Assembly: GCF_001895145.1 (NCBI RefSeq)
Contig: NZ_BDIR01000011.1
Location: 1-64,000, forward strand
DNA: 64,000 bases
Source: Arcobacter sp. LA11
GTDB taxonomy: Bacteria; Campylobacterota; Campylobacteria; Campylobacterales; Arcobacteraceae
Direction of reading: 5' to 3'
Under the pieces are notes generated by a model. That model was not told the DNA's origin. It saw only the letters and a list, made by a program, of their open reading frames with translations, and did not search any database. Within the stretch, counting starts at the first letter, position 1. Every line of letters starts with the position of its first letter. The position numbers and the translations under genes were made by a program. Shown in pieces: positions 134 to 17,959 of the stretch.

Positions 134-928
134 TTAAACTGCGGATTGTATAACACCTGCATCAGCTCTTAATGCAGCACCATTTGTAGCAGATGATAAA
201 GAACTTGCAGTATATACAATCATATTTGATACTTCTTCTACATTTGTAAATCTTTGAAGTAAAGATGTTGGTCTTATTTCCTCAAAAAATTCTTTTTCAA
301 TCTCTTTAAAGGATTTATTTTGAGAGTTAGCAAGTTCTTCCATAAATTCAGAAACGCCTTCTGAGTTAGATGGTCCAACAATAATTGAATTAGAAGTAAC
401 ATTTGTACCTTTTGTAAGTTCTGCAATTCCTCTTGCAACGGAAATTTGAGCAGTTTTAGTCATACCATAATGTATCATTTCTTTTGGAATTTGTAAGGCA
501 GATTCACTAGAAATAAATATAATTCTTCCCCAGTTCTGATTTACCATTTTTGATAAATAATGTTGTGAGAGTCTTACTCCACTCATAACATTTATATTGA
601 ACATATCAATCCACTCTTTTTCCGTGATGTCTTTAAATTCTTTTGGTTCAAATACTCCTAGATTATTTATTAGAATATCAATATGAGGAATTTTTGATAT
701 AAGATGATTACAACCTTCTAAGCTTTTTAAATCTGCAACAATACCTTCTATTTTAGCCTCTGGAAATTTCTTTTTAATTTTTAAAATAGCTTTTTTTAAT
801 TTTTCTTTATTTTTACCATTAATAACTACCTTTGCACCTTCTTCACAAAGTTTCATTGCCGTTGCTAGTCCAATTCCCTGCGTGGAACCTGTAATTAATG
901 CAATTTTATTTTTTATTTTTAAATCCAT
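134..928 (-). CDS. Short-chain dehydrogenase/reductase (SDR family)
   Basis: A 264-residue classical SDR, probably an NAD(P)-dependent cytoplasmic oxidoreductase. It has the cofactor glycine motif GSTQGIG near residue 13, an NNLG motif near residue 88, the catalytic Ser in an ISSES stretch and the YGMTK catalytic Tyr/Lys pair. I placed the start at 928 because AGGAG precedes that ATG at good spacing. The longer reading frame to 982 would run through the operator-like element and its -10 sequence. The substrate is unknown. Position beside the phenol regulators, and a copy of their presumed operator upstream, suggest a role in aromatic or side-product metabolism. Confidence 0.85.
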   Translation of the reverse strand: MDLKIKNKIALITGSTQGIGLATAMKLCEEGAKVVINGKNKEKLKKAILKIKKKFPEAKIEGIVADLKSLEGCNHLISKIPHIDILINNLGVFEPKEFKDITEKEWIDMFNINVMSGVRLSQHYLSKMVNQNWGRIIFISSESALQIPKEMIHYGMTKTAQISVARGIAELTKGTNVTSNSIIVGPSNSEGVSEFMEELANSQNKSFKEIEKEFFEEIRPTSLLQRFTNVEEVSNMIVYTASSLSSATNGAALRADAGVIQSAV

Positions 929-948
929 ATATTCTCCTTTAAAAAAAT

Positions 949-980
949 ATAATAGTAAAAAAGAATCGTGATTAAATCGC
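949..980 (-). promoter_or_regulatory. Operator-like direct repeat plus -10, SDR promoter (site B)
   Basis: Reading the minus strand, GCGATTTAATCACGA (980 to 966) holds two GCGA-like half-sites 11 bp apart. Eleven bases later comes TATTAT (954-949), a plausible -10 hexamer. The repeat therefore covers the -35 position, as expected for an OmpR/PhoB-type activator. Near-identical elements with the same spacing precede dmpK and the porin gene. Binding by the adjacent response regulator is inference. Confidence 0.6.
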
Positions 981-1042
981 ATTTTATTTTATAAAATTAA
1001 TTAAAGGATAAAAGATTTCTTTTTAGTATATACTAGATTGAA

Positions 1043-1801
1043 CTATAAAAGTTCAATCTTATAACCTGTATTATTTTGATTTACAATTAAATCTTTATGT
1101 ATTTTTCCTCTTAGTCTAAATAACAGTGATCTAAAAGCAGCATATCCAGCAGGCTCGTCTTGCCATATTGCGTATTCTAATTGTTCTTGTGAAATGTTAT
1201 GTCCAGGTGAGCTACATAATAGTTTTATAATTTTAATCTCTTTGGATGTTAGTTTTACAGGTTCATCTCCATAATAGAGAACTTCTTTCTCTTTATCAAA
1301 TAGGTACCCAAATTTCAATCTTACTGTTCTTGATTTTTCTTCTGTATTTATAGATAGTTTATGTTCTAAAGTTTTATTGATATTTTGTACAGCGTCTAGT
1401 TTTTGAGTTTTTGATTTATCCTCTTCGGCTTTTTTTAAAGCTACTTCAATTGCAGCTTGTAATATATTTTTTTTGTAAGGTTTTAATATGTATCCGTATG
1501 GAAAAGTTTCTGATGCCTCTTTAATTGTTGAGAGTTCAGAATTTGCAGTTAGAAATATTATAGGAGTATTAGGAATAATTGTTTTTAACTCTTTTGCTAA
1601 AACTATACCTGTTGTAGGACCTTTTAAATAAATATCCATTAAAATCAAATCAGGAACTACTCCTTTTTCTAAAATTTTTAATGTTTTACATTTATTAGGA
1701 GCTATGCCACAGGGTTCGTAACCTAGCTCAATTAGTGTTTCTTTTAAATTTAAAGCAATTATTGATTCATCTTCTACAATCAAAATTTTTATTTTATTCA
1801 T
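1043..1801 (-). CDS. Response regulator, REC plus OmpR-type winged helix
   Basis: 252 residues. The receiver domain occupies about residues 4-125, with acidic E10/D11, phosphoacceptor D56, T85 and K107. The C-terminal region (about 160-250) matches the OmpR/PhoB winged-helix DNA-binding domain (Trans_reg_C), with a typical ending of recognition helix and beta hairpin. AGGAG precedes the ATG at 1801. The gene overlaps the end of the upstream histidine kinase gene by 8 bp, so the two are a translationally coupled two-component pair. OmpR-type regulators bind tandem direct repeats about 10-11 bp apart, which fits the repeats at 966-980, 3160-3174 and 17945-17959. It is the likely activator of the phenol operon; no DmpR-type regulator is present. 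Confidence 0.88.
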   Translation of the reverse strand: MNKIKILIVEDESIIALNLKETLIELGYEPCGIAPNKCKTLKILEKGVVPDLILMDIYLKGPTTGIVLAKELKTIIPNTPIIFLTANSELSTIKEASETFPYGYILKPYKKNILQAAIEVALKKAEEDKSKTQKLDAVQNINKTLEHKLSINTEEKSRTVRLKFGYLFDKEKEVLYYGDEPVKLTSKEIKIIKLLCSSPGHNISQEQLEYAIWQDEPAGYAAFRSLLFRLRGKIHKDLIVNQNNTGYKIELL

Positions 1802-3095
1802 AGCTATTCTCCTTTTGAGGAAATTTAATATTACACTCTAGTCCTTTATTATTACAAAATTCAATTTCTCCATCAAGTTGATCTTCTACAATGGAATGTA
1901 TTAATTGCATTCCAATTGATTCACTCTTATATAAAGAATTTATCTTTTTCATACCATCTCCATTATCTCTTATTTTTAATAATATAAAATCATCAATTAT
2001 ATTCATATGAATACATAAAAGATTATCTCTATTTTCACTAAAGGCATACTTAAAAGCATTTACACAAAGTTCGTGCAATACCATTCCTAATTGAATACAT
2101 CTATTAGTTGAAAAAATAAGTTTGTCAATATGTAAATCAACGGTTAGTTTTGTATTTTGAGATATGTATAAATCTTTTATATCTTCAACTAGTTTGGTAA
2201 TATAATCAGGTAAGTTAATATATGCTAAGTTTTCCCCTAAATATAAAAATTCATGAACTAGTGCCATTGTATGGATTCTACTTCTACTTTGTTTCATTGC
2301 ATCTTTTAACTCATTATCGTTACTTCTTCTTTCTTGCATATTTAATAAAGAAGAGATTATTTCCATATTATTTTTAACTCTATGATGAATTTCTTTTAAA
2401 AGAATCTCTTTTTCATCAATAGACTTTTGAAGTTCTCTATTCATTGTTGTTATACTATTTCTATATTCTAGTCTTTGTGTCATATCTCTTCCAAATGCAC
2501 ATATATAATCTTTCCCTCCATATATAAATCCGTGCCCTGATACTTCAATTGGAATAATAGTTCCATCTTTTTTTCTTTGTGTTGTTTCAAGTCTCCAGTT
2601 TTTTGTATTTTTAATTTCTAACATACATACTTGTGCGGAGTTCCTATCAAAATTTGGATCCATATCTTCTAAGTCCATATCTAACATCTCTTCTTTTGTA
2701 TATCCTAGTATGTTACAAGCTGCTTGATTTACATAAACAAATTTTGCATCAAGAGTGAACCAATATATTTGGTCAACTGAATTATCTAAAGCAAATTCAT
2801 AAGGGGCTAATCTATCTTTATCTTTTTGTTTTAGTTCATTGTATGATTTTTCTATTTTAGTGATTACTTTTTGCATATGATTAATCATTATATATAAAAT
2901 TATCCCAGTAGATATCATAAATAGTATTACAAATGTAATGGGACCTTGATTTGTTATGTCATTATTTTCAAAAAATATTTTAATTAATTTATCTAAAAGA
3001 AGAACGCCTAAAATACCAGTAAAAATAAAAGTCAGAGAGAATCTTCTTGCAATTTTTTTATTATTAAAAAAACGAGTTTTAAATTTATATTTCAA
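1794..3095 (-). CDS. Membrane PAS histidine kinase (HisKA_2 type)
   Basis: 433 residues. Two membrane segments (about 19-41 and 52-72) are separated by only some ten residues, so there is no periplasmic sensor domain. A PAS domain follows (about 98-210), then a HisKA_2 dimerisation box with the sequence EIHHRVKNNM (H237/H238). An HATPase domain (about 325-430) has an N box at HELCVNAFKYAF and a DNGDGM G1 box. The PAS domain is the most likely ligand sensor. It is transcribed divergently from dmpK and coupled to the response regulator gene, so a role in sensing phenol or its products is a strong inference but not shown. Confidence 0.87.
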   Translation of the reverse strand: MKYKFKTRFFNNKKIARRFSLTFIFTGILGVLLLDKLIKIFFENNDITNQGPITFVILFMISTGIILYIMINHMQKVITKIEKSYNELKQKDKDRLAPYEFALDNSVDQIYWFTLDAKFVYVNQAACNILGYTKEEMLDMDLEDMDPNFDRNSAQVCMLEIKNTKNWRLETTQRKKDGTIIPIEVSGHGFIYGGKDYICAFGRDMTQRLEYRNSITTMNRELQKSIDEKEILLKEIHHRVKNNMEIISSLLNMQERRSNDNELKDAMKQSRSRIHTMALVHEFLYLGENLAYINLPDYITKLVEDIKDLYISQNTKLTVDLHIDKLIFSTNRCIQLGMVLHELCVNAFKYAFSENRDNLLCIHMNIIDDFILLKIRDNGDGMKKINSLYKSESIGMQLIHSIVEDQLDGEIEFCNNKGLECNIKFPQKENSYE

Positions 3096-3159: not shown

Positions 3160-3191
3160 GCGATTAATTCGCGAATATTTTTTATTAAACT
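3160..3191 (+). promoter_or_regulatory. dmpKp: Operator-like direct repeat plus -10, phenol operon promoter (site C)
   Basis: GCGATTAATTCGCGA (3160-3174) carries two perfect GCGA half-sites 11 bp apart. Eleven bases later TAAACT (3186-3191) is a weak -10-like hexamer. The element lies in the 168-bp gap between the divergent kinase gene and dmpK and points towards dmpK. It matches site B and site A in repeat period, orientation and spacing. Confidence 0.6.
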
Positions 3192-3263: not shown

Positions 3264-3530
3264 ATGAGTAATGAGTTGATTACAGATTTTGATAAGTATG
3301 TTCATATTACAAATCAAACTAAAGCTGGATTAATAGAGTTTGATTTTTCTGTTGGAGATCCAACAATGTATCTTGAACTTGCTTTACCAGTAAGACAATT
3401 TGAAAATTTTTGTAATAAAAATGGTGTTAAGTATTTAACTAAACAACAAGAGATTGATGTGGAAAATGACAGACATAAGTGGAAGTATGGCGAAGTTGGA
3501 ACATTAAAATATGAAAAGGAGCAAGAGTAA
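3264..3530 (+). CDS. dmpK: Phenol hydroxylase accessory/assembly protein DmpK
   Basis: 88 residues, the usual size for DmpK/PhK proteins, which help assemble active phenol hydroxylase but are not part of the catalytic complex. Family features include the stretch VGDPTMYLELALPVRQFENFC (conserved hydrophobic core, residues about 31-50). It is the first gene of the catabolic operon. A strong AGAAAGGG ribosome site precedes the ATG, and the stop overlaps the dmpL start by one base (TAATG). The presumed operator and promoter lie at 3160-3191. Confidence 0.87.
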   Translation: MSNELITDFDKYVHITNQTKAGLIEFDFSVGDPTMYLELALPVRQFENFCNKNGVKYLTKQQEIDVENDRHKWKYGEVGTLKYEKEQE

Positions 3531-4525
3531 TGACATTAGATATAAAAAGTATTGATATACAGCCTAAAAGGGAGACCTTTGGTCATGTTGCAAGGCGTAT
3601 TGGAGAAGGTAAGGCTGCAACTAGATATGAAGAAGCTACATATGACTTACAAGCAACGCATAACTTTCATTATAGACCAACATATAACCCTAAGTATGAG
3701 TTATATGATACTGATAAAACAGCTATTAAGATGGAAGATTGGTATAAGTTTTTAGATCCAAGACAATATTACTATTCAAACTATGTAATGACAAGAGCAA
3801 AACAGCAAGAAGTAGCAGAGCAAAACTTTACTTTTATAGAAAAAAGAGATCTTTTATCTGTAATGCCTCAAGATGTAAAAAATGAGATTTTAAATCATGT
3901 TTTACCTTTAAGACACTATGAATGGGGAGCTAATATGAACAATCTTCAATTAGTTTCTGAAAGTTATGGGGCGGCTTTTGCTAGTGCTTCTATGTTCCAT
4001 GCTGAAGATAGATTAGGTAATGCTCAATATATTACTAGAATTGGTTTAATGATCTCTGAAAATGAGACAGATGTTTTAGATAATTCAAAAGAAGCATGGT
4101 TAAATGATGCTTCATGGCAACCATTAAGAAAAGCACTTGAAGATTCATTTGTTTTAGAAGATTGGTTTGAGTTACATATGGTTCAAAATATAATTATGGA
4201 TGGATTTATTCAACCACTATTTTTTAATGTGTATGAACAAGAATTAAATGCAAGAGGTGGAAGTGCACAAGGAATGATGAGTGAATTTATTACAACTTGG
4301 TATGAAGAATCATCTAAGTGGACTGATAAAACTATTGAGGTTGCATCATCTGAGTCAGAAGAAAATGCTCAGTTATTATCTTCTTGGGCAATAAAATATA
4401 TTGAAATCATGGAAGAAGCAACTTTAGCCTTAGCAAAAAATATTGTTGAAAATCCTACTTCTACAGTTGCAACAATTAAAGAAAATTTAATTAACCGTTT
4501 AAATAAAAACGGTCTAAAAGTATAG
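3530..4525 (+). CDS. dmpL: Phenol hydroxylase beta subunit DmpL
   Basis: 331 residues, matching the non-catalytic ferritin-like beta subunit of the (alpha-beta-gamma)2 bacterial multicomponent monooxygenases. The N-terminus is rich in Tyr/His/Pro with the family pattern DPRQYYYSNYV near residue 75. The helical core contains the LLSVMPQDV and LPLRHYEWGANMNNLQL stretches seen in toluene/phenol monooxygenase beta chains. It lacks the pair of EXXH iron sites found in the alpha subunit. It overlaps dmpK by one base and is followed 8 bp later by dmpM, as in other phenol hydroxylase operons. Confidence 0.92.
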   Translation: MTLDIKSIDIQPKRETFGHVARRIGEGKAATRYEEATYDLQATHNFHYRPTYNPKYELYDTDKTAIKMEDWYKFLDPRQYYYSNYVMTRAKQQEVAEQNFTFIEKRDLLSVMPQDVKNEILNHVLPLRHYEWGANMNNLQLVSESYGAAFASASMFHAEDRLGNAQYITRIGLMISENETDVLDNSKEAWLNDASWQPLRKALEDSFVLEDWFELHMVQNIIMDGFIQPLFFNVYEQELNARGGSAQGMMSEFITTWYEESSKWTDKTIEVASSESEENAQLLSSWAIKYIEIMEEATLALAKNIVENPTSTVATIKENLINRLNKNGLKV

Positions 4526-4533
4526 GAGATACT

Positions 4534-4809
4534 ATGTCACAAAATAATGTAATGTTAGTTCTTCAAGCAAATGAAGAAGCACGTCCTATGGTTGAAGCAA
4601 TACAAAAAGACAACCAAGATGCAATTGTTGAAAATCAGCCTGCAATGATAAAAATAACATCTCCTGGAAAGTTAGTCATAAAAGCTGAAACTATGGAAGA
4701 AATTATTGGACGAGAATGGGATCCTCAAGAACTTCAACTTGTTTTGATTTCACTTGCAGGTAATGTTGATGAAGATTATGATCATTTTACAATCTATTGG
4801 GATAACTAG
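4534..4809 (+). CDS. dmpM: Phenol hydroxylase coupling (effector) protein DmpM
   Basis: 91 residues, the typical length for the cofactorless MmoB/DmpM regulatory component that binds the hydroxylase and couples electron transfer to hydroxylation. The sequence opens with the family beta strand (NNVMLVLQANEEARPMVEAI) and contains MIKITSPGKLVIKAE with the expected Gly. It sits between the beta and alpha subunit genes in canonical order, preceded by a TAGGAG ribosome site. Confidence 0.92.
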   Translation: MSQNNVMLVLQANEEARPMVEAIQKDNQDAIVENQPAMIKITSPGKLVIKAETMEEIIGREWDPQELQLVLISLAGNVDEDYDHFTIYWDN

Positions 4810-4818
4810 GAGCAAACA

Positions 4819-6339
4819 ATGACTATGAACACTAAAAATAGAAAAAAACGTTTAAATATGAAAGAAAAATATAAACATATGACAAGACTTGGTTGGGAAA
4901 CTAGCTACCAAGATATGGATAAAGTTTTTCCTTATGATAATTATGAAGGTATTAAAATTCATGATTGGGAAGCTTGGGAAGACCCATTTAGAATGACAAT
5001 GGATTCTTACTGGAAATATCAAGGTGAAAAAGATAAAAAGTTATATGCAATTATTGATGCTTTTGCTCAAAATAATGCTCAAAAAAATATTACGGATGCA
5101 AGATATGTATCTGCATTAAAATTGTTTTTAACTGGTGTTTCACCATTAGAATATCAAGCTCATAGAGGTTTTGCACATGTTGCAAGAAATTTTAGAGGTG
5201 ATGGTCCAAGAGTAGCGTGTCAAATGCAAGCAATTGATGAACTAAGACATGTTCAAACTCAAATTCATACTTTAAGCCATTATAACAAACACTTTAACGG
5301 ATTTTCTGAGTTTGCACATTGGCATGATAGAGTTTGGTATCTTTCTGTTCCTAAATCATTCTTTGATGATGCAAGAACTGCTGGACCATTTGAATTTATG
5401 ATTGCAATTGGATTTTCATTTGAGTATGTATTAACAAACCTTTTATTTGTACCATTTATGAGTGGAGCTGCTTATAATGGAGATATGGCAACTGTTACAT
5501 TTGGATTCTCTGCACAATCTGATGAAGCTAGACATATGACATTAGGTCTTCAAGCTATTAAATTTATGTTAGAGCAAGATCCAGCAAATGTTCCAATCGT
5601 ACAAGGTTGGATTGATAAGTGGACATGGAGAGGTTATAAAGTTTTAGGGCTTGTATCAATGATGATGGATTATATGTTACCTGAATCTCCACAGTCATGG
5701 AAAGAAGCATGGGAATTATATTTTGAAGAAAATACTGTTGCACTATTTAAAGATTTAGAAAGATATGGAATCAAAGTTCCTGATTGTGCAGGAACAGTTG
5801 CAGCTGAAAAAGATCATTTATCTCATCAAATTTGGATGACATTTTATACTCATGGAGCAGCAGCACCTTTCCATACTTGGTTACCTGATGAAAAGAAAAT
5901 GGATTGGTTAAGTGAAAAATATCCAGATACATTTGATAAATATTATAGACCAGTATATGAACATTGGGCAAAATTAGAGAAAGAGGGTAAGAGATATTAT
6001 TCAGAAATGTTACCCCAACTTTGTCAGACTTGTCAGATACCAATGCTTTATACAGAGATTGAAAAAGGTGAACCAACACAAATTGCCCATAGACATACTA
6101 TCTTCAATGGTGAGAGATTTCATTTTTGTTCTGATCATTGTAAAGACATTTTTGAGAATGAACCTGAAAAATATACCCATGCGTGGATGCCTGTACAACA
6201 AATATTCCAAGGAAATTGTGGTGGGGCAACACTTCCAGAAGTTTTAGATTGGTATAAAGTTAAGTTTGGTACAGACAATTTAGATTATGTAGGGTCTGAA
6301 GATGAAGCTACATGGAAACAGTGGCATGGGCAAGAATAA
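4819..6339 (+). CDS. dmpN: Phenol hydroxylase alpha (diiron) subunit DmpN
   Basis: 506 residues. This is the catalytic subunit that inserts oxygen into phenol to give catechol. The six carboxylate/histidine iron ligands are visible with family spacing: E111, E141 and H144 (DELRH), E202, E236 and H239 (DEARH). The C-terminal third holds a YHS-like zinc-binding region with CQTC and HFCSDHC motifs, typical of phenol hydroxylase alpha chains. The start follows AGGAGCAAACA. Another ATG lies two codons in, and the exact start is not critical. It is flanked by dmpM and dmpO. Confidence 0.95.
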   Translation: MTMNTKNRKKRLNMKEKYKHMTRLGWETSYQDMDKVFPYDNYEGIKIHDWEAWEDPFRMTMDSYWKYQGEKDKKLYAIIDAFAQNNAQKNITDARYVSALKLFLTGVSPLEYQAHRGFAHVARNFRGDGPRVACQMQAIDELRHVQTQIHTLSHYNKHFNGFSEFAHWHDRVWYLSVPKSFFDDARTAGPFEFMIAIGFSFEYVLTNLLFVPFMSGAAYNGDMATVTFGFSAQSDEARHMTLGLQAIKFMLEQDPANVPIVQGWIDKWTWRGYKVLGLVSMMMDYMLPESPQSWKEAWELYFEENTVALFKDLERYGIKVPDCAGTVAAEKDHLSHQIWMTFYTHGAAAPFHTWLPDEKKMDWLSEKYPDTFDKYYRPVYEHWAKLEKEGKRYYSEMLPQLCQTCQIPMLYTEIEKGEPTQIAHRHTIFNGERFHFCSDHCKDIFENEPEKYTHAWMPVQQIFQGNCGGATLPEVLDWYKVKFGTDNLDYVGSEDEATWKQWHGQE

Positions 6340-6348
6340 GGAGATATT

Positions 6349-6711
6349 ATGGCAGTTAAATCAATAGGAAAATATGAAGCGAAAATGATGGATGCAGTTG
6401 AAAACTTTCATGGGAATCAACTTGTTTATATAGGATGGGATAAACATAGGCTGATTAATTCAGCTATGGCTTTCCCTTTACCTCCACAAATGCCATTTGG
6501 GGCACTGTTAAGTGATGTAATGCCGATGTGTTATAAAGATCATCCAGATTTTGAACAGGTTGTTTGGGATGATTCTATTATTTGGAATTTAAATGGAGAA
6601 TTATTTGTTCCAGATGTTGAAAAATCTTTACAAGATAATGGAATAGATCATAAATCAATTTTGAGATTTGAAACACCAAATCTTACAGGACTTAATGGCG
6701 TAGGAATGTAA
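6349..6711 (+). CDS. dmpO: Phenol hydroxylase gamma subunit DmpO
   Basis: 120 residues, the length of the small gamma subunit that stabilises the hydroxylase dimer. Family sequence features include the FHGNQLVYIGWDKHR stretch (about residues 19-33) and PLPPQMPFGALLSDVMP (about 45-61). An AAGGAG site precedes the ATG. The stop is separated from dmpP by one base, so translation of the reductase is likely coupled. Confidence 0.92.
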   Translation: MAVKSIGKYEAKMMDAVENFHGNQLVYIGWDKHRLINSAMAFPLPPQMPFGALLSDVMPMCYKDHPDFEQVVWDDSIIWNLNGELFVPDVEKSLQDNGIDHKSILRFETPNLTGLNGVGM

Positions 6712-6712
6712 T

Positions 6713-7771
6713 ATGAGTTATCAAGTAGAGATAGAGCCAACTGGTGATGTAATTGAGGTTCAAGATGGACAAACTATTCTTGATGCCGCATTAAGACAAG
6801 GTGTCTATATCCCACATGCTTGTTCTCATGGTTTATGTGGAACTTGTAAGGTTGAAGTTCTAGAAGGAGAAGTAGATTATGGTGCTGCTTCACCTTTTGC
6901 ATTGATGGATATAGAGAAAGATGAAGGGAAATGTCTAGCTTGTACTGCAACGCCAATGGAAGATTGTGCGATTGAAGCTGATATTGACGAAGAACCAGAT
7001 GCTAGAACAATTCCTGTACAGGATTTTATGGGAACAGTTGTTGAGGTAAAAGATTTAACGCCAAGAATTAAAGGAATTTTTATTGAATTAGATGAAGAGA
7101 TTGATTTTCAAGCAGGACAGTATATTCAATATTATGTTCCTGGATTTGAAGAACCAAGAGCGTTTTCTTTGTGTAATTCATCAAATAATAAAAAAATTAT
7201 TGAGTTAAATATTGCATTAGTTCCTGATGGTGAAGCAACACCTTGGATACATAAAAATGTAAAAGTAGGTGCAAGAAGGAAAATTGCTGGACCATATGGA
7301 AGATTTTTTGTACGAGAATCTGCAAATAAACCAATGATTTTCTTTGCAGGTGGTTCTGGACTTTCAAGTCCAAAATCAATGATTTTAGAACAACTTGAAA
7401 ATGGAAGTACTCAACAAATACATCTATTTCATGGAGCAAGAAATCAAGAAGAACTTTATTATTCTGATATGTTTGAAAAATTGGCTGAAGAATATGAAAA
7501 CTTTACATACGTTCCTGTGTTATCAGATAATGATTTAGAGAATTGGAATGGAAGAACAGGTTTTGTAAATGATGCAGCAAATGAGATATTTGAAAATGAT
7601 TTTTCTGGTTCAAAGGCATATTTATGTGGCCCTCCACCAATGATTGATGCGTGTATTACAACTTTAATGAGAGGAAGACTTTTTGATAGAGATATATATA
7701 CTGAAAAGTTTTTTTCTAAAGCGGATTTAAATAGTACAAGTGTTCAAAGTCCTCTTTTTAAATCAATCTAG
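6713..7771 (+). CDS. dmpP: Phenol hydroxylase reductase DmpP (2Fe-2S, FAD, NADH)
   Basis: 352 residues. This component passes electrons from NADH to the diiron subunit. An N-terminal plant-type ferredoxin domain (about 1-90) has cysteines C37, C42, C45 and C77 in the C-x4-C-x2-C-x31-C pattern. An FAD domain follows with the RAFSLCNS motif near residue 150, then an NAD domain with GGSGLSSPKSM near 222 and the CGPPPMID motif near 306. Length and order agree with DmpP. It ends the KLMNOP block. Confidence 0.95.
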   Translation: MSYQVEIEPTGDVIEVQDGQTILDAALRQGVYIPHACSHGLCGTCKVEVLEGEVDYGAASPFALMDIEKDEGKCLACTATPMEDCAIEADIDEEPDARTIPVQDFMGTVVEVKDLTPRIKGIFIELDEEIDFQAGQYIQYYVPGFEEPRAFSLCNSSNNKKIIELNIALVPDGEATPWIHKNVKVGARRKIAGPYGRFFVRESANKPMIFFAGGSGLSSPKSMILEQLENGSTQQIHLFHGARNQEELYYSDMFEKLAEEYENFTYVPVLSDNDLENWNGRTGFVNDAANEIFENDFSGSKAYLCGPPPMIDACITTLMRGRLFDRDIYTEKFFSKADLNSTSVQSPLFKSI

Positions 7772-7779
7772 GTTTTGAA

Positions 7780-8112
7780 ATGGGCGAAAAAATATTCTTA
7801 ATGACAATGGAAGGTTCTAATAAAGAGATTATTGGAACAAAAGATAAACACATCTTAGATGCTATGTTAGCTGTTGGAATTGATAAAGCTCCAAAAGGTT
7901 GCCATGGCGGAGGATGTGGTGTTTGTAAAATTAAGATAATAAAAGGAGAAGTTACTACTTTAACTCAAAGTAGAAAGTTCTTATCAGTAGAAGAAGAGAA
8001 AGATGGTCATGTACTTGCATGTAGAGCATTCCCTCTTTCAGACTTAGAGTTTGAATTTATTGGAAAACCTAAATGTAAAGTTAATGAAAAGAAAAAATAC
8101 GGATTTGTATAA
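7780..8112 (+). CDS. dmpQ: XylT-type chloroplast-like 2Fe-2S ferredoxin DmpQ
   Basis: 110 residues. The cysteine pattern GCHGGGCGVCK, with a later CRAF cysteine, marks a plant-type 2Fe-2S ferredoxin. In other meta-cleavage operons XylT/DmpQ proteins re-reduce the iron of inactivated catechol 2,3-dioxygenase, and this gene directly precedes that enzyme's gene. The GCHGGGCG loop, in place of the CSxGxCGTC of reductase domains, fits the XylT subgroup. Confidence 0.88.
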   Translation: MGEKIFLMTMEGSNKEIIGTKDKHILDAMLAVGIDKAPKGCHGGGCGVCKIKIIKGEVTTLTQSRKFLSVEEEKDGHVLACRAFPLSDLEFEFIGKPKCKVNEKKKYGFV

Positions 8113-8123
8113 AAGGAAAAACT

Positions 8124-9068
8124 ATGGGAATTATGAGAATAGGACATATAGATATTAATGTAATTGATATTGAAGTATCAAAAGCATATTACACAAAAGT
8201 AATGGATATGAGAATCACTCATGAGGCTGCAGATGGAAAAGTCTATTTAAAATGCTGGGATGAGTGGGATAAATATTCTGTTGTTTTAACGCCAAATGAT
8301 AGTGCAGGAATGAATAATATTGCATACAAAGTTGAAAAAGATTCTGATTTAGATGATTTAAAAACAAAGTTAGAAGCTTATGGCATTTCAGTAAATGATA
8401 GACCTGCTAATGAAGTAATTTTTTGTGGAAGAACATTAACTTTTAATCTTCCTTCTGGACATGAAATGATTCTTTATTCACAAAAAGATTTCATTGGTAA
8501 AGATGTTGGAACTCAAAATCCAGAACCATGGCCTGATGGAATGACTGGAGTAGGTGCTCATTGGTTAGATCATGCTTTATTAATGTGTGAACTTGATCCT
8601 GAAAATGGAGTAAATAAAGTTACTGAAAATACAAAATTAATGGAAGAAGTTTTTGATATGAAACTTGCAGAACAAGTTATGGTTGGTCCAAATGGTGATG
8701 TTCAGTTAGCAACTTGGCTAAGTGCTGGAAATACTCCCCATGATATTGCATTTGTTGGAGGTCCTGAAATGGGATTACATCATTTTGCATTTTTCTTAGA
8801 TGATTGGGCAGATATTTTAAAAGCTGCAGATGTCTTATCTAAAAATGATGTAAAAGTAGATGTTACTCCACAAAGACATGGAATTACAAGAGGAAATACA
8901 ATTTATTTCTTTGATCCATCAGGAAATAGAAATGAGACATTTGCTGGACTTGGTTATGCAGTTTATCCTGATATGCCAACAATTACTTGGACAGAAGATA
9001 AATTATGGAAAGGTATTTTCTATCATACTGCACAACCTGTTGAGTCTTTTACAACAGTATATACATAG
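8124..9068 (+). CDS. dmpB: Catechol 2,3-dioxygenase (extradiol)
   Basis: 314 residues. It opens catechol between C2 and C3 to give yellow 2-hydroxymuconic semialdehyde. The vicinal-oxygen-chelate fold is duplicated. The catalytic half has metal ligands H150, H220 and E271 and the active-site residues H206, H252 and Y261. From H206 onwards the spacing matches XylE/DmpB exactly. The signature FFDPSGNRNETF (263-274) is the extradiol dioxygenase motif. An AAGGAAAA ribosome site precedes the ATG. Confidence 0.95.
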   Translation: MGIMRIGHIDINVIDIEVSKAYYTKVMDMRITHEAADGKVYLKCWDEWDKYSVVLTPNDSAGMNNIAYKVEKDSDLDDLKTKLEAYGISVNDRPANEVIFCGRTLTFNLPSGHEMILYSQKDFIGKDVGTQNPEPWPDGMTGVGAHWLDHALLMCELDPENGVNKVTENTKLMEEVFDMKLAEQVMVGPNGDVQLATWLSAGNTPHDIAFVGGPEMGLHHFAFFLDDWADILKAADVLSKNDVKVDVTPQRHGITRGNTIYFFDPSGNRNETFAGLGYAVYPDMPTITWTEDKLWKGIFYHTAQPVESFTTVYT

Positions 9069-9076
9069 GATTTGAA

Positions 9077-9493
9077 GTGAAAACATTTAATCACAATGAT
9101 ATATCTATGCAAGCAGCTTTTGCTGCTTGTAATGAAGCTGTGAAAAAAGCAGAAGAACTTAAGATAAAAATTAATGTAAGTATTTGTGATAGTGCTGGAT
9201 TAGAACTAGCTTTTTTAAGAATGAATGGTTCATATATTCACTCAATTAATATTGCAAAAGATAAAGCATATACTAGTGCAAGTTTTGGGTTTAGTACTGC
9301 TACTTGGACAGATATTTTTAAGGAAGCTTCACACTTAGAACAAGGATTTTCTAATAGAGATAGACTAATACCTTTTGGTGGAGGTCTACCTATTATGAAT
9401 GAAAATGAACTTATAGGTGCAATTGGAGTTTCTGGAGGAACAGAGGAAGAAGATATTATTTGTGCGCAAGCAGGAATAAATAAAATAGTATAA
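9077..9493 (+). CDS. GlcG/HbpS-family protein (DUF336)
   Basis: 138 residues, GTG start preceded by AGGA. It belongs to the GlcG/HbpS fold family, with the alternating pattern of AFAACNEAVKKAEEL, the beta strand INVSICDSAGLELAFLRM, the KAYTSASF segment and the C-terminal GGLPIMNENELIGAIGVSGG. Some members bind haem or cobalamin-like ligands; most are uncharacterised. It lies between catechol dioxygenase and 2-hydroxymuconic semialdehyde dehydrogenase, so a role in catabolism or enzyme protection is plausible but unproven. Confidence 0.85.
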   Translation: MKTFNHNDISMQAAFAACNEAVKKAEELKIKINVSICDSAGLELAFLRMNGSYIHSINIAKDKAYTSASFGFSTATWTDIFKEASHLEQGFSNRDRLIPFGGGLPIMNENELIGAIGVSGGTEEEDIICAQAGINKIV

Positions 9494-9512
9494 ATAAAAT
9501 TTAGGAATACAT

Positions 9513-10970
9513 ATGAAAAAAGTACAACATTATATAAATGGACAATTTGTAGATTCACAATGTGGTGAATTTTTTGATAACTATAACCCAGCAACAAATG
9601 AGTTGATTTCAAAAGTAGCTTTAGGACGGGAATATGAAGTAAATGCGGCAGTTGAAGCTGCAAGAAAAGCATTAACTGGGGAATGGGGGCAAATGAAGTT
9701 AAATGACAGAATTGCTTTAATGTATGAAATTGCAAATGAAATGGATAAAAGATTTGATGATTTCTTAGAAGCTGAAACTCTTGATACAGGTAAACCATAC
9801 TCTATTGCCAGACATATTGATATTCCAAGAGGAGCTGCAAACTTCAAAGTATTTGCTGATACCATGAAATCAGTTGCAGATGAAGCATATAGAATGGATA
9901 CACCAGATGGCAAAACTGCAATGAACTATTCAATGAGACAGCCAAAAGGTGTTATTTCTGTTATTTCTCCTTGGAATTTACCACTTCTTTTAATGACTTG
10001 GAAAGTTGGCCCCGCTCTAGCTTGTGGTAATACAGTTATTGTAAAACCTTCTCAAGTAACTCCTACAACAACATCACTTTTAGGTGAAGTAATGTCTAAA
10101 GTTGGAATTCCTGATGGAGTTTATAATGTAGTACAAGGAAAAGGGTCTATTACTGGGAATTTAATTACTGCTCATAAAGATATTGATGCTATTACTTTTA
10201 CAGGTGAAACTGTAACAGGTGAAAAAATTATGAAAGAGTGTTCTGTTGGTGTTAGGGATGTTTCTTTGGAACTTGGTGGTAAAAACCCTGCAATTATCTT
10301 TGAAGATTGTGATATGGATAAAGCAATTACTGAAACAACAAGATCAGCCTTTGCAAATTCTGGACAAGTGTGTTTAGGTACAGAAAGAGTTTATGTACAA
10401 AGACCAATTTTTGATAAATTTGTCAAAAGATTAAAAGAGTCTGCTCAAAATTTAAAACTTGGAGTTCAAAATGATGAATCATCAGATATGGGTCCATTAG
10501 TAAGTGCAGCACATAGAGATAAAGTTTTATCATATTATGAAACAGCAGTTGCTGAAGGTGCAAATGTAGTTTTAGGTGGAGGGACTCCTACAATGACAGG
10601 TAACTTAAAAGATGGTTATTGGGTTGAACCAACAATTTGGACAGGCTTAAGTGAAGATGCAACGGTTGTAAAAGAGGAAGTATTTGGACCTTGTTGTCAT
10701 GTTCAACCATTTGATACAGAAGAAGAAGTTATAAAAATGGCAAATAATTCTCCATATGGTTTAGCTTCTACAGTATTTACTGAAAATCTAGATAAAGCTC
10801 ATAGAGTTGCAGGACAGATTGATTCAGGAATTGTATGGATTAACTCATGGTTTTTAAGAGATTTAAGAACACCATTTGGTGGGATGAAAGGTTCTGGAAT
10901 TGGACGTGAGGGTGGTCATCACTCTTTAGAATTCTATACAGAGCTAAAAAATGTATGTATAAAGATGTAA
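9513..10970 (+). CDS. dmpC: 2-hydroxymuconic semialdehyde dehydrogenase
   Basis: 485 residues, the aldehyde dehydrogenase superfamily length. It oxidises 2-hydroxymuconic semialdehyde to 4-oxalocrotonate with NAD+. Visible catalytic residues are N155 in SPWNLP, E253 in LELGGKNP and the nucleophile C287 in SGQVCLGTERV. The C-terminal PFGGMKGSGIGREGG is the usual family signature. Neighbours define the pathway branch: this enzyme feeds the decarboxylase/tautomerase route (dmpH, dmpI), while dmpD gives the hydrolytic route. Confidence 0.93.
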   Translation: MKKVQHYINGQFVDSQCGEFFDNYNPATNELISKVALGREYEVNAAVEAARKALTGEWGQMKLNDRIALMYEIANEMDKRFDDFLEAETLDTGKPYSIARHIDIPRGAANFKVFADTMKSVADEAYRMDTPDGKTAMNYSMRQPKGVISVISPWNLPLLLMTWKVGPALACGNTVIVKPSQVTPTTTSLLGEVMSKVGIPDGVYNVVQGKGSITGNLITAHKDIDAITFTGETVTGEKIMKECSVGVRDVSLELGGKNPAIIFEDCDMDKAITETTRSAFANSGQVCLGTERVYVQRPIFDKFVKRLKESAQNLKLGVQNDESSDMGPLVSAAHRDKVLSYYETAVAEGANVVLGGGTPTMTGNLKDGYWVEPTIWTGLSEDATVVKEEVFGPCCHVQPFDTEEEVIKMANNSPYGLASTVFTENLDKAHRVAGQIDSGIVWINSWFLRDLRTPFGGMKGSGIGREGGHHSLEFYTELKNVCIKM

Positions 10971-10977
10971 GGACAAA

Positions 10978-11769
10978 ATGATGGAAAAAGCAAAAATTGA
11001 AAAATATGGTAATGAATTATATGAAGCTTTAAAATCTAACACAATGATTGAACCTATTACTTCAAGAGAATCAGATATTACAATTGAAGATGCCTACGCA
11101 ATTCAAGACGTGTTTATCAAAAGAAGAATAAAAGATGATGGTGTAAAAGTTATTGGTAAAAAAATTGGTGTTACATCAAAAGTTGTAATGGATATGTTAG
11201 GTGTTCATCAGCCAGATTTTGGATATCTTTTATCTGATATGATTTATTCTGATGGTGATGAAATAGATGTTACAAATAAAATGATTCAACCAAAAGCAGA
11301 GGGTGAAATTGCCTTTGTTCTAAAAGAAGATTTAATGGGACCAGGGGTTACAACGGCTGATGTTTTAAGAGCAACAAAATTTGTGATGCCTTGTTTTGAA
11401 ATTGTTGATTCTAGAATTAAAGATTGGAAAATAAAAGTACAAGATACAGTTGCAGATAATGCTTCTTGTGGATATATAGTATTTGGAGGACAAGGTGTTA
11501 ATCCTAGAGATGTTGATTTGACAACTTGCGGTTTAACATTAGAAGCGAATGGAGAATTATTACATACAGGAGCAGGTGCCGCTGCTCTAGGAAGTCCTGT
11601 AAATGCAGTTGCCTGGCTTGCAAATACTTTAGGCTCTTTTGGAGTTGGTCTAAAAGCTGGTGAGGTAATACTTTCAGGAGCTTTATGTGCGATGGTTACG
11701 ATTAAACCAAATGATAATATGACTATTAATGTAGGTGGAATTGGTTCTGCTTCTTGTAGATTTGTGTAA
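10978..11769 (+). CDS. dmpE: 2-oxopent-4-enoate (2-hydroxypenta-2,4-dienoate) hydratase
   Basis: 263 residues. It adds water to 2-oxopent-4-enoate to give 4-hydroxy-2-oxovalerate. It is a member of the hydratase/decarboxylase family together with DmpH in the same operon. The family motifs KIGVTSKVVMDMLGVHQPDFGYL, EGEIAFVLKEDL and CFEIVDSRIKDWKIKVQDTVADNAS hold the metal-binding acidic residues. It can be told from DmpH by position and by the CGYIVFGG versus SSRYVTGG segment, so swapping of the two names is possible but unlikely. Confidence 0.88.
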   Translation: MMEKAKIEKYGNELYEALKSNTMIEPITSRESDITIEDAYAIQDVFIKRRIKDDGVKVIGKKIGVTSKVVMDMLGVHQPDFGYLLSDMIYSDGDEIDVTNKMIQPKAEGEIAFVLKEDLMGPGVTTADVLRATKFVMPCFEIVDSRIKDWKIKVQDTVADNASCGYIVFGGQGVNPRDVDLTTCGLTLEANGELLHTGAGAAALGSPVNAVAWLANTLGSFGVGLKAGEVILSGALCAMVTIKPNDNMTINVGGIGSASCRFV

Positions 11770-11778
11770 ATAGTGCAA

Positions 11779-11796
11779 AGGATAACTTGTTATCCT
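11779..11796 (+). other. Hairpin 1 between dmpE and dmpF
   Basis: AGGATAA and TTATCCT form a perfect 7-bp stem around CTTG. It is the first of three stem-loops in the 130-bp gap between dmpE and dmpF. Confidence 0.45.
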
Positions 11797-11816
11797 CTTT
11801 AGGATTTGTTTATTTA

Positions 11817-11835
11817 GGTGAAATTTATTTTCACC
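11817..11835 (+). other. Hairpin 2 between dmpE and dmpF
   Basis: GGTGAAA and TTTCACC form a perfect 7-bp stem around TTTAT. No U-tract follows, so it is more likely a processing or stabilising hairpin than a terminator. Confidence 0.45.
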
Positions 11836-11861
11836 GTTAAAAGAAATAAAAAGAATAAAAG

Positions 11862-11887
11862 GTCCCTTCAAAATAGGGACTATTTTT
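11862..11887 (+). terminator. Terminator-like hairpin upstream of dmpF
   Basis: GTCCCT (11862-11867) pairs with AGGGAC (11875-11880), followed by TATTTTT. It resembles a weak intrinsic terminator. It lies inside the operon, 12 bases before the dmpF start, so it probably attenuates or marks an RNA processing site rather than ending the operon. Confidence 0.45.
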
Positions 11888-11899
11888 AAGGAATTAAGT

Positions 11900-12784
11900 A
11901 TGAAAATTAACTGCGCATTAATTGGATCTGGAAATATAGGAACAGATTTAATGTATAAACTTCAAAGAAGTGAGATTTTAAACCCATTATGGATGGTAGG
12001 AATTGATCCAGAATCTGATGGATTATTAAAAGCAAAAGAAGCTGGAATGAAAATTACTTCTGATGGTGTAGATGGATTATTAGAATATATTGAAGATGAT
12101 GGAGTAATGATTGCTTTTGATGCAACATCAGCTTATGTTCATGGTGAGAATAATAGAAAACTAAAAGAAAAAGGTGTAATGGTTATAGATTTAACACCTG
12201 CTGCAATTGGGCCATTTTGTGTTCCTTCTGTAAATATGAAAGAGTTACTTTCTAAAAATGAACAAAATGTAAATATGGTTACTTGTGGAGGGCAAGCTAC
12301 TATTCCAATGGTAGCGGCTGTATCTGCTGTTCAAGCTGTTGAATATGGCGAGATTGTTGCAACAGTTGCTTCAAAATCAGCAGGTCCAGGAACAAGGGCA
12401 AATATTGATGAGTTTACAGAGACTACTAAACTAGGTATAGAAAAAGTTGGTGGTGCAAAACTTGGTAAAGCAATTATAATTTTAAATCCTGCTGAGCCAC
12501 CTTTAATGATGAGAGATACTGTTCACTGTTTAACAGTTGATGACCCAGATGAAGAAGCTATTACAAAATCTGTAAATGAGATGATAAGTGAAGTTCAAAA
12601 GTTTGTACCAGGCTATAAATTAAAAAATGGTCCAGTATTTGATGGAAAAAAAGTATCTATCTTTTTAGAAGTTGAAGGTTTAGGAGATTACTTACCAAAG
12701 TATGCGGGTAATCTAGACATTATTACAGCTGCCGCAACAAATATTGCAGAGCAAATGGCTGAACAAATAAAAGCAGGAGCATAA
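11900..12784 (+). CDS. dmpF: Acetaldehyde dehydrogenase (acylating)
   Basis: 294 residues. It converts acetaldehyde, NAD+ and CoA to acetyl-CoA and normally works in a complex with the aldolase DmpG, to which acetaldehyde is channelled. The Rossmann motif is [10 protein letters not shown] (10-19). The catalytic cysteine is C129 in [11 protein letters not shown], and the family DP/NTP segments are present. It is slightly shorter than Pseudomonas DmpF. AAGGAATTAAGT precedes the start, and dmpG follows after 2 bp. Confidence 0.94.
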
Positions 12785-12786
12785 TT

Positions 12787-13815
12787 ATGGATTTAAGAGG
12801 AAAAAAAGTAACTCTTCATGATATGTCATTAAGAGATGGAATGCACTCTATTAGACATCAGTTTACATTAGAACAAATGACAAAAATGTCAATGGCTATG
12901 GATGAAGCGGGTGTTCCTATGATTGAGGTGACTCATGGAGATGGCTTAGGAGGAACTTCACTTAATTATGGTTTTGGTTTACATAGTGATGAAGAGTGGT
13001 TAGATGCTGTTGTTCCTAATGTAAAACAAACAAAAGTATCTGCTCTTTTACTTCCTGGTATTGGAATTGTAAAAGATTTAGAACGAGCAGTAGAACATGG
13101 AATTTCAACTGTTAGGGTTGCAACACATTGTACTGAAGCTGATTGTTCTCAACAACATATCACAAAAGCTAAAGAGATGGGCTTAGATACAGTTGGTTTT
13201 TTAATGATGGCACATATGGTTGACGAAAAAAGAATTGTTGAAGAAGCTAGAAAGATGGTTTCATATGGTGCAAATTGTATTTATGCAACAGATTCTGCTG
13301 GATATATGTTACCAGATATGGTTAGTGCAAGAATAGGGGCTTTGAAAAAAGAGTTTGGAGATGAAATTGAAATTGGATTTCACGGTCATAATAATATGTC
13401 TATGGGTGTTGCTAATTCTCTGGCTGCAATCGAATCAGGGGCAACTAGAATTGATGCTTCACTAGCAGGATTTGGAGCAGGTTCTGGAAATACAGCAATG
13501 GAAGTTTTAGTAGCTGTTTTAAATAGAATGGGTGTTGAAACTGGAATTGATTTAAATAAAATTGAAGATGCAGCTGAAGATATCGCTTTACCAATTATGG
13601 GGAAACCTACAAGAATTTCTAGAGATTCTTTAACTCTTGGATATGCAGGTGTTTACTCTTCTTTTTTACTTTTTGCACGTCGTGCTGAAGCAAAATATGG
13701 AATAGATACAAGAACTATTTTAGAAGAACTAGGTCGAAGAGGAACTGTTGGTGGTCAAGAAGATATGATTGAAGATTTAGCATTAGATATGGCAAAAGAG
13801 CAAGGATTAATATAA
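12787..13815 (+). CDS. dmpG: 4-hydroxy-2-oxovalerate aldolase
   Basis: 342 residues, class II pyruvate aldolase. It splits 4-hydroxy-2-oxovalerate into pyruvate and acetaldehyde. R16, D17 and H20 in SLRDGMH and the metal ligands H199/H201 in GFHGHNN match DmpG with a shift of one residue. The C-terminal communication domain used to bind DmpF is present. The stop overlaps the dmpH start (TAATG). Confidence 0.95.
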
Positions 13816-14603
13816 TGGCATTAGATAAAGCAACAATAGAAAAGCTAGCTAAGCATTGTGAAGATGCTGAGGTTCAGGCTTATGAGATTACAAAGATAAC
13901 TGATGATTATCCTCAAATGACATATGAGGATGCATATGATATCCAATGGAAAGCAAGAGCTAATAAAGAAGCTAGAGGTACAAAAATAGTTGGTATGAAA
14001 ATGGGTCTAACTTCTCAAGCTAAGATGAAACAAATGGGAGTTGAAAATCCTTGTTATGGATATTTAGCAGATTATTTTGCTTATGGTGATGGAGCAGAAA
14101 TTAAGATTGATGAGTTAATTCATCCTAAAGTAGAAGCTGAAATTGCTTTTATTTTAAAAGATGATTTATCAGGCCCTGGGTGTCATATTGGAGATGTTTT
14201 AGCTGCAACTGATTTTGTTATGCCTGCAGTTGAAATTATTGATTCTAGATATAAAGATTTTAAATTTGATTTAAAATCAGTTATTGCTGATAACTCTTCG
14301 TCTTCTAGATATGTAACTGGTGGAAGAATGAGAGATATAAAAGACTTAGATTTAAAAACTCTAGGTGTTGTTATGGAAATAAATGGTGAAGTAGTTCAGC
14401 TTGGAGCTGGAGCTGCTGTTCTTGGTCATCCTGCAACATCAATTGCTATGTTAGCAAATATGATGGGTGAAAGAGGTGAAGTTTTAAAAGCTGGTACTTA
14501 TATTCTTTCAGGTGCAATTACTGCTGCAGTGGGAGTAAAAAAAGGTGATAATGTAACTGTGAAATTTCAAGATCTTGGTTGTTTAACAATGAAGTTTGTA
14601 TAA
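13815..14603 (+). CDS. dmpH: 4-oxalocrotonate (2-oxo-3-hexenedioate) decarboxylase
   Basis: 262 residues. It is the paralogue of DmpE that decarboxylates the 4-oxalocrotonate isomer made by DmpI to 2-oxopent-4-enoate. Shared family motifs are KMGLTSQAKMKQMGVENPCYGYL, EAEIAFILKDDL and AVEIIDSRYKDFKFDLKSVIADNSSSS. The SSSR tract and the position next to dmpI support the decarboxylase assignment. It overlaps dmpG by one base. Confidence 0.9.
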   Translation: MALDKATIEKLAKHCEDAEVQAYEITKITDDYPQMTYEDAYDIQWKARANKEARGTKIVGMKMGLTSQAKMKQMGVENPCYGYLADYFAYGDGAEIKIDELIHPKVEAEIAFILKDDLSGPGCHIGDVLAATDFVMPAVEIIDSRYKDFKFDLKSVIADNSSSSRYVTGGRMRDIKDLDLKTLGVVMEINGEVVQLGAGAAVLGHPATSIAMLANMMGERGEVLKAGTYILSGAITAAVGVKKGDNVTVKFQDLGCLTMKFV

Positions 14604-14612
14604 AGGAATCCT

Positions 14613-14804
14613 ATGCCAATTGCAACAATAAATATAATTGAAGGAAGATCTGATGAAAAAAAAGAGGATCTTATTATAAAAGTAACTCAAGCTATTCATG
14701 AATCAATTGATGCTCCTATTGAATCAATAAGAGTGATATTAAACGAGATGCCAAAACAACATTTTGGAATAGCTGGTAAAAGTATAAAAAAGTTAGGTAA
14801 ATAG
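14613..14804 (+). CDS. dmpI: 4-oxalocrotonate tautomerase
   Basis: 63 residues including Met1. The mature N-terminal proline (MPIATI) is the catalytic base of this family. The GRSDEKK segment holds Arg11, and RVILNEM holds Arg39 (numbering from Pro1). Size and hexamer-forming beta-alpha-beta pattern are as expected. It keto-enol isomerises 2-hydroxymuconate for DmpH. AAGGAATCCT precedes the ATG. Confidence 0.94.
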   Translation: MPIATINIIEGRSDEKKEDLIIKVTQAIHESIDAPIESIRVILNEMPKQHFGIAGKSIKKLGK

Positions 14805-14844
14805 TATATTAAAACTAAATATATTTGATGAAAAAAGGAATAAG

Positions 14845-15663
14845 ATGGAAAACCCAGAAATAGCACATAGTATAAAAACTGGAAACTTTAAAACAAATTA
14901 TCATGATATGGGAAGTGGCGAAACAGTAATATTTATTCATGGCTCAGGACCAGGTGTTTCTGCTTTTGCAAACTGGAGATTATGTATGCCAGATTTATCT
15001 GAAAACTTTAGAGTACTTGCCCCTGATATGGCTGGTTTTGGTTTTACTGAAAGGCTAGAAAATTCAAGTTATAATATGGATGTTTGGGTTAAACAAATAA
15101 TCGATTTAATGGATGCCTTAGATATCAAAAAAACAAATCTTGTTGGAAACTCATTTGGTGGTGCTTTAGCATTATCTTTAACGATTAAATATCCTGAAAG
15201 GTTTAAAAAAATTGTACTTATGGGATCAATGGGTGTTGAATTTGAATTAACAGCAGGACTTGATCAAGCTTGGGGTTATACTCCAAGTTTAGAAAACATG
15301 AAATCTTTACTTGATACTTTTGCATATAGTAGAGTTTTAGTAACAAATGAGTTAGCAAAGTTAAGATATGATGCAAGTATACGTCCAGGTTTTCAAGAGT
15401 CATTTTCTTCAATGTTTCCAGCTCCTAGACAAAATTCGGTTAGAGATATGGCAAGTAAAGAAGAAGATATAAAGAAAATTGATAAAGATGTATTGATTAT
15501 TCATGGAAGAGATGATAAAGTTATTCCTTTTGAAAACTCTATAAGGTTACATAGTTTAATCCAAAAATCTCAATTACATGGATTTGGGGAGTGTGGACAT
15601 TGGAGTCAAATTGAACACAAAGATAGATTTAATAAAATAGTAAAAGATTTTTTTATGGAGTAA
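14845..15663 (+). CDS. dmpD: 2-hydroxymuconic semialdehyde hydrolase (alpha/beta hydrolase)
   Basis: 272 residues. It cleaves the ring-opened product hydrolytically, yielding formate and 2-oxopent-4-enoate from the catechol product. The oxyanion motif is HGSGPGVSAFANW (32-44), the nucleophile is S103 in GNSFGGAL, the acid is D223/D224 in HGRDDKVIP, and the base is H252 in CGHWSQIE. In Pseudomonas CF600 dmpD follows dmpC; here it is at the operon end, after dmpI. The identification as the meta-cleavage hydrolase is firm at subfamily level. Confidence 0.9.
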   Translation: MENPEIAHSIKTGNFKTNYHDMGSGETVIFIHGSGPGVSAFANWRLCMPDLSENFRVLAPDMAGFGFTERLENSSYNMDVWVKQIIDLMDALDIKKTNLVGNSFGGALALSLTIKYPERFKKIVLMGSMGVEFELTAGLDQAWGYTPSLENMKSLLDTFAYSRVLVTNELAKLRYDASIRPGFQESFSSMFPAPRQNSVRDMASKEEDIKKIDKDVLIIHGRDDKVIPFENSIRLHSLIQKSQLHGFGECGHWSQIEHKDRFNKIVKDFFME

Positions 15664-15667
15664 AGAT

Positions 15668-17927: not shown

Positions 17928-17959
17928 AATATAATTAAATGAAATCGCATTTTAATCGC
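17928..17959 (-). promoter_or_regulatory. Operator-like direct repeat plus -10, porin promoter (site A)
   Basis: On the minus strand GCGATTAAAATGCGA (17959 to 17945) has two perfect GCGA half-sites 11 bp apart. Eleven bases downstream TATATT (17933-17928) is a good -10 hexamer. The porin start is about 100 bp further, leaving a long leader. The same arrangement is found upstream of dmpK and the SDR gene. Confidence 0.6.

Follow-up and report, generated by a model that had tools for sequence, protein, structure and literature searches.

By computation alone, we analysed a 64,000-nucleotide stretch of contig NZ_BDIR01000011.1 of Arcobacter sp. LA11 (hereafter, the window), in which genes for a membrane sensor kinase (HK) and a response regulator (RR) lie divergent from the phenol hydroxylase gene dmpK. 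The features are listed in Table 1. The Pfam domains and the coordinates agreed with this arrangement, which an earlier note on the sequence had described. The RR comprises 252 residues and was matched over the cut-offs by Response_reg (PF00072, 2e-18) and Trans_reg_C (PF00486, 2e-9), so that it possesses both a receiver with the phospho-accepting Asp (D56) and the OmpR-type winged helix that the note had assigned to it; residues D11, D56, T85 and K107 were invariant among 36 aligned RRs. The HK comprises 433 residues, starts with TTG and overlaps the RR gene by 8 nt. Its PAS and HisKA_2 domains were confirmed by matches to PAS_9 (5e-13) and HisKA_2 (PF07568, 3e-26), and HATPase_c was matched at 2.4e-5 with a score of 25.2 bits, slightly below the Pfam cut-off of 26.4. 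H237, N346, D377 and G379 were invariant among 34 aligned HKs, and the intact His in HisKA_2 together with the ATPase domain identified the protein as a HisKA_2 sensor kinase. In the AlphaFold model (mean pLDDT 88), two membrane-region helices were separated by only about 6-15 residues, as expected from the claim that the kinase has almost no periplasmic loop, and they were followed by the PAS domain, a long signalling helix and the kinase core. The pairing of a HisKA_2 kinase with an OmpR-type regulator had also been called uncommon, which did not hold here: 3 of 3 HisKA_2 kinases in this genome adjoin a gene for a receiver with Trans_reg_C, and the pairing is therefore unexceptional in this genome. 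For HWE/HisKA2 kinases in general, the partners often lack DNA-binding domains (PMC10359499).

Table 1. Features of the phenol locus in the window
Feature	Position	Strand	Basis
Short-chain dehydrogenase (SDR) gene, behind RR	134..982	-	adjoins the pair in most relatives
RR, receiver + OmpR/PhoB-type winged helix	1043..1801	-	Pfam Response_reg + Trans_reg_C; phospho-site residues invariant
Membrane sensor kinase HK: 2 TM, PAS, HisKA_2, HATPase_c; TTG start	1794..3095	-	Pfam; AlphaFold (AF2) model
Cytoplasmic PAS domain of HK (residues 92-212), candidate ligand site	2460..2822	-	AF2 model, pLDDT 94; fold matches
Candidate operator before dmpK: direct repeat, 11-bp period, GCGATTAATTC-GCGA	3160..3174	+	window count; kept in relatives
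-10 element TAAACT, 11 nt past second repeat	3186..3191	+	site alignment
dmpK	3264..3530	+	Phenol_hyd_sub 1e-16 (Pfam)
Predicted target: dmpKLMNOP, 2Fe-2S ferredoxin, catechol 2,3-dioxygenase (C23O), meta-cleavage genes	3264..16606	+	ORFs; Phenol_hyd_sub; catechol_2_3 over cut-off
Porin-like outer-membrane protein gene, probable regulon member	16642..17829	-	operator upstream of homologues; signal-like start
Second candidate operator and -10, GCGATTAAAATGCGA-N11-TATATT, before porin-like gene	17928..17959	-	full pattern match

The dmp and meta-cleavage genes are presumably carried on a single transcript. At window positions 14604-14844, the relatives G003, G001 and G002 have a gene for an oxidoreductase of about 340 residues (luciferase-like by eye) that is absent from the window. 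The product of the porin-like gene had no Pfam match and was named for its signal-like start and for a partial match (30%) with an annotated porin of the OprD family.

The direct repeat GCGA-N7-GCGA, which lies upstream of dmpK, recurred among the upstream regions compared and was kept in relatives. The repeat alone matched the window twice against 0.05 matches expected, and the repeat with a -10 element (TANNNT) also matched twice, before dmpK and before the porin-like gene, against 0.00 expected. Upon alignment of 70 distinct sites on the repeat, the TANNNT element lay exactly 11 nt past the second GCGA (T+26 in 62/70, A+27 in 68/70 and T+31 in 70/70), and TT was present five nt past the second GCGA. 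Because the -10 sits at this fixed distance, the repeat occupies the -35 region, as the boxes of PhoB-type activators likewise do. In relatives, such sites precede dmpK, the MDH/ferredoxin/C23O genes and the porin-like gene, and also genes for branched-chain-type transporters and for a second diiron monooxygenase. The SDR gene has an operator-like site of its own in L081, L082 and L087. Homologues of the porin-like gene bear the site in G001, G002, G003, G013, G014, G017, G042, G045, G074, G108, G109, G112 and G116, and in many relatives the homologues that bear it lie near phenol genes. The gene thus probably belongs to the same regulon and encodes a channel for aromatic uptake.

As the repeat pattern was first scored on the same loci that yielded it, the independent checks are the unlinked copies, the porin sites, the distant genera and the genomes without the HK. 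In genomes where the pair is unlinked, a site still precedes dmpK (L075, 6058; L076, 4728) and the ferredoxin-C23O genes. Across the family, the short pattern was found in 24 of 24 genomes with the HK (62 sites) versus 14 of 80 genomes without it (17 sites), and a reversed-pattern control gave 11 and 10 sites in the two groups, respectively. Almost all of these 17 appear to be chance matches; the -10 was in place at two of them, of which one lies within a gene and the other in the remnant locus of G051 described below. A third short-pattern match in the Arcobacter sp. LA11 genome (C6:143234) falls within an ORF in an ExbB/TonB-type region, and we took it to be a chance match. We regard the GCGA-N7-GCGA repeat with its fixed -10 as a putative new element.

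The phyletic distribution of the pair matched that of the phenol genes. DmpN was present in 24 of 104 Arcobacteraceae genomes, and an HK orthologue (62-100% identity) was found in the same 24 and in none of the other 80. Fisher tests on this co-occurrence ignore phylogeny and linkage and their values are therefore only descriptive, and part of the co-occurrence is linkage, because genes lying together travel together. The pair was adjacent to and divergent from dmpK at 23 of 25 DmpN loci, covering six genera and the A. cloacae plasmid pACLO. In the two exceptions (G078 and G018), it adjoins exporter-like genes away from dmpK, and the linkage is therefore not obligatory. Additionally, nine genomes carry a second pair next to separately placed MDH-like/ferredoxin/C23O genes, and one genome carries a pair behind benABCD-like genes (BenA, BenB and BenD over the NCBIfam cut-offs). 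More divergent kinases (34-38% identity), found in Arcobacteraceae and also on a plasmid of Sulfuricurvum, adjoin p-cresol methylhydroxylase (PCMH) genes (PDB 9h40, 8e-169). Beyond the family, six loci were retrieved from other Campylobacterota (36-48% identity). Each adjoins PCMH or dmpKLMNOP genes, the phenol hydroxylase once, and an operator site precedes PCMH or dmpK at all six; at L185, the site before the cytochrome c/PCMH genes is an imperfect GCGA/GTGA. In a kinase scan of named genomes, the matches outside the phylum were generic kinases only, at about 30% identity, which served only as alignment depth for the model. In G051, which is without DmpN, a truncated RR (78% identity), the SDR gene and three operator-like sites were found with no HK (L225, 8260-14584); this locus is a decayed copy left after the loss of the kinase and phenol genes.

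The RRs linked to phenol genes (P), meta-cleavage genes (M) and ben genes, as well as the orphan RRs, share a near-identical helix, EPAGYAAFRS-x-LFRLR, with one T for S. In the five PCMH-linked RRs of Arcobacteraceae, RS is replaced by RG or RN, and the corresponding sites are mostly GAGA; the PCMH-linked RRs of other families keep RS with sites that are mostly GCGA. This change is confined to one clade and thus counts as one event. In the kinase tree, the M-type kinases formed a clade (100/99) into which the ben-linked kinases and a single phenol-linked row with a long branch also fell. The PAS domain holds 9 of the 23 columns with the best separation of P from M kinases, and the P-to-M differences there include Y111H, A126T, L130D/E, Q173H and I/F181Y; PAS columns 111, 126, 130, 138, 173 and 181 split the phenol-type and meta-cleavage-type kinases without overlap. 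This separation suggests that the P and M kinases have different ligands, perhaps phenol for P and a catechol-like compound for M and the ben-linked (B) kinases.

Because a fold search with the whole kinase was swamped by kinase domains, which dominated its matches, the PAS domain was folded alone. The best fold matches of this model were the PAS domains 3olo (Z-score of 17.6) and 3bwl (Z-score of 17.4), and the matches spanned haem, flavin/FAD and small-ligand PAS domains; as these types match alike, the model leaves the ligand class undecided. The PAS1 domain of TodS was not among the best 50 PAS fold matches listed, which bears neither way. Two PAS cysteines, C127 and C199, were invariant in 34 of 34 kinases and may have a redox or ligand role.

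We consider it very probable that in Arcobacteraceae HK and RR, at the position of DmpR, act in its stead as a two-component, PhoB-type activator of phenol catabolism. HK, in the membrane, would sense phenol or an early metabolite, most likely through its cytoplasmic PAS domain, would autophosphorylate at H237 and would then phosphorylate D56 of the RR. The RR would bind as a tandem dimer to the two GCGA half-sites 11 bp apart, in place of a -35 element, and would activate, rather than repress, an ordinary non-sigma54 promoter with its -10 lying 11 nt further, like PhoB at pho boxes. In this genome, the RR would act on the dmp/meta operon and on the porin-like gene. It is plausible that the PAS domain binds phenol, and we put the chances that phenol is the ligand at about even. 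Equally balanced is the broader proposal of a Campylobacterota-wide family of HisKA_2/PhoB-type pairs, in which duplicated copies were re-tuned in the PAS domain for each step (phenol, catechol, benzoate and p-cresol) and kept the recognition helix almost unchanged, with a single GCGA box. If so, one cell would have several sensors, each with its own ligand, that converge on a common aromatic regulon.

The earlier note had pointed out that the pair sits where a DmpR-type activator is expected and had suggested a separate way of sensing phenol or a metabolite, probably through the PAS domain. That the pair stands in for DmpR gained support from its location, the conserved repeat with its fixed -10 and the absence of the expected alternatives; the pairing itself is not remarkable here. 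Pseudomonas-type dmp operons usually have a DmpR/XylR-type sigma54 activator, as in a P. veronii plasmid (L188) with a sigma54 regulator divergent from dmpK. Nevertheless, control by such an activator encoded elsewhere is hardly credible in this genome: a profile search found no XylR_N domain and hence no dmpR homologue elsewhere in the genome, while the P. veronii plasmid served as a positive control at 4.5e-37; the sole full Sigma54_activat domain belongs to a NifA-like protein of the GAF-AAA-Fis type; and a noisy scan (271 matches) that allowed up to 3 mismatches found no -24/-12-like site in the interval from HK to dmpK. It is also improbable, although less so, that the GCGA repeat belongs to an unlinked regulator of another kind and that this regulator governs the dmp operon, with the pair as a passenger or modulator. 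The survey of the genome covered XylR_N/DmpR and sigma54-activator types, which leaves room for another one-component regulator, and the pairs of G078 and G018 lie away from dmpK, both of which would suit an unlinked regulator. However, the repeat and the kinase co-occur in 24 of 24 genomes, the 11-bp direct repeat suits an OmpR/PhoB-type protein, and the PCMH-linked Arcobacteraceae clade changed both half-site and recognition helix, which, albeit a single event, is expected if this RR reads the repeat.

The most serious competitor, which we nonetheless consider unlikely, keeps the same regulon and replaces phenol as the signal: the PAS domain would read redox state, oxygen or membrane energy by way of haem, flavin or cysteines, a fitting signal for an oxygenase pathway. 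The presence of FixL haem, NifL FAD and MmoS redox domains among the best PAS fold matches is consistent with this reading, as is the invariance of the two cysteines. In contrast, a common oxygen or redox signal does not predict paralogues specialised by pathway step or PAS columns that split P from M kinases, and inspection of the kinase alignment by eye revealed neither a conserved haem His of the FixL type nor a LOV Cys motif.

The activator proposed here resembles the sigma54 activators DmpR, XylR and PheR in its position divergent from dmpK, its target operon and presumably its inducer class. Those are single proteins with XylR_N/V4R and AAA+ domains that act on -24/-12 promoters, whereas this system consists of two proteins at a -10 promoter, and neither HK nor RR has an XylR_N/V4R or Sigma54_activat domain. 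As in the TodS/TodT and StyS/StyR systems of Pseudomonas, a PAS-sensor kinase and a response regulator would serve an aromatic operon here. TodT and StyR are of the LuxR/FixJ type, and the TodS and StyS kinases are soluble. Unlike these large soluble multi-domain hybrid kinases, the HK is a small membrane HisKA_2 kinase with an OmpR/PhoB-type (Trans_reg_C) partner; TodS is a complex seven-domain kinase (PMC4321377), and its PAS1 domain binds toluene (PMC4861429). PcrS/PcrR of Aromatoleum aromaticum exerts two-component control over PCMH genes, as proposed for the distant relatives here, but there sensing is by a V4R domain of PcrS, and control depends on sigma54 (PMC10715001). With PhoB/PhoP-type regulators, the RR shares the winged helix and a direct repeat with an 11-bp period, which for PhoP consists of 7-bp motifs with a 4-bp spacer (PMC4832192) and which here lies just upstream of the -10; the half-site GCGA, the HisKA_2 rather than HisKA kinase and the regulon of aromatic catabolism are different. 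The pair would work like TodST, StySR and PcrSR, yet without their defining domain sets, and is not a DmpR.

In the literature searched, which was mostly non-subscription, we found no published account of phenol regulation in Arcobacter or of such a pair, and its novelty is provisional because subscription journals mostly lie outside that literature. For a phylum in which that literature yielded no account of such control, the model offers a prediction of what turns on the genes for phenol, catechol, benzoate and p-cresol. The operator is usable for genome-wide scans, the paralogous sensors that differ in the PAS domain and share a recognition helix would form a natural set for studying the aromatic specificity of PAS sensors, and the system would offer a sigma54-free parts list for phenol biosensors.

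Several further observations were made at these loci. Branched-chain-amino-acid-type ABC transporter genes adjoin M-type pairs in L026 (5056-6345), L080 (4168-5502), L081 (15261-16550) and L082 (4540-5826), each preceded by a GCGA repeat and with AATAAT where the -10 would lie, and are candidates for an aromatic importer. A second diiron monooxygenase (Phenol_Hydrox, 25-27% identity to DmpN) lies beside dmp or meta genes in two genera (L084, 2609-6084; L027, 6204-9599), with an operator in front in L084. On pACLO (L039, 11588-13124), HipA-type toxin-antitoxin genes are inserted between dmpP and the ferredoxin gene, and the second half has its own operator at 13375. Elsewhere in the window (29540-30844), a protein is composed of repeats like 'SISTWGN..YGGIGAPTDSGYTKIYS', which by eye resemble an RCC1-like beta-propeller.
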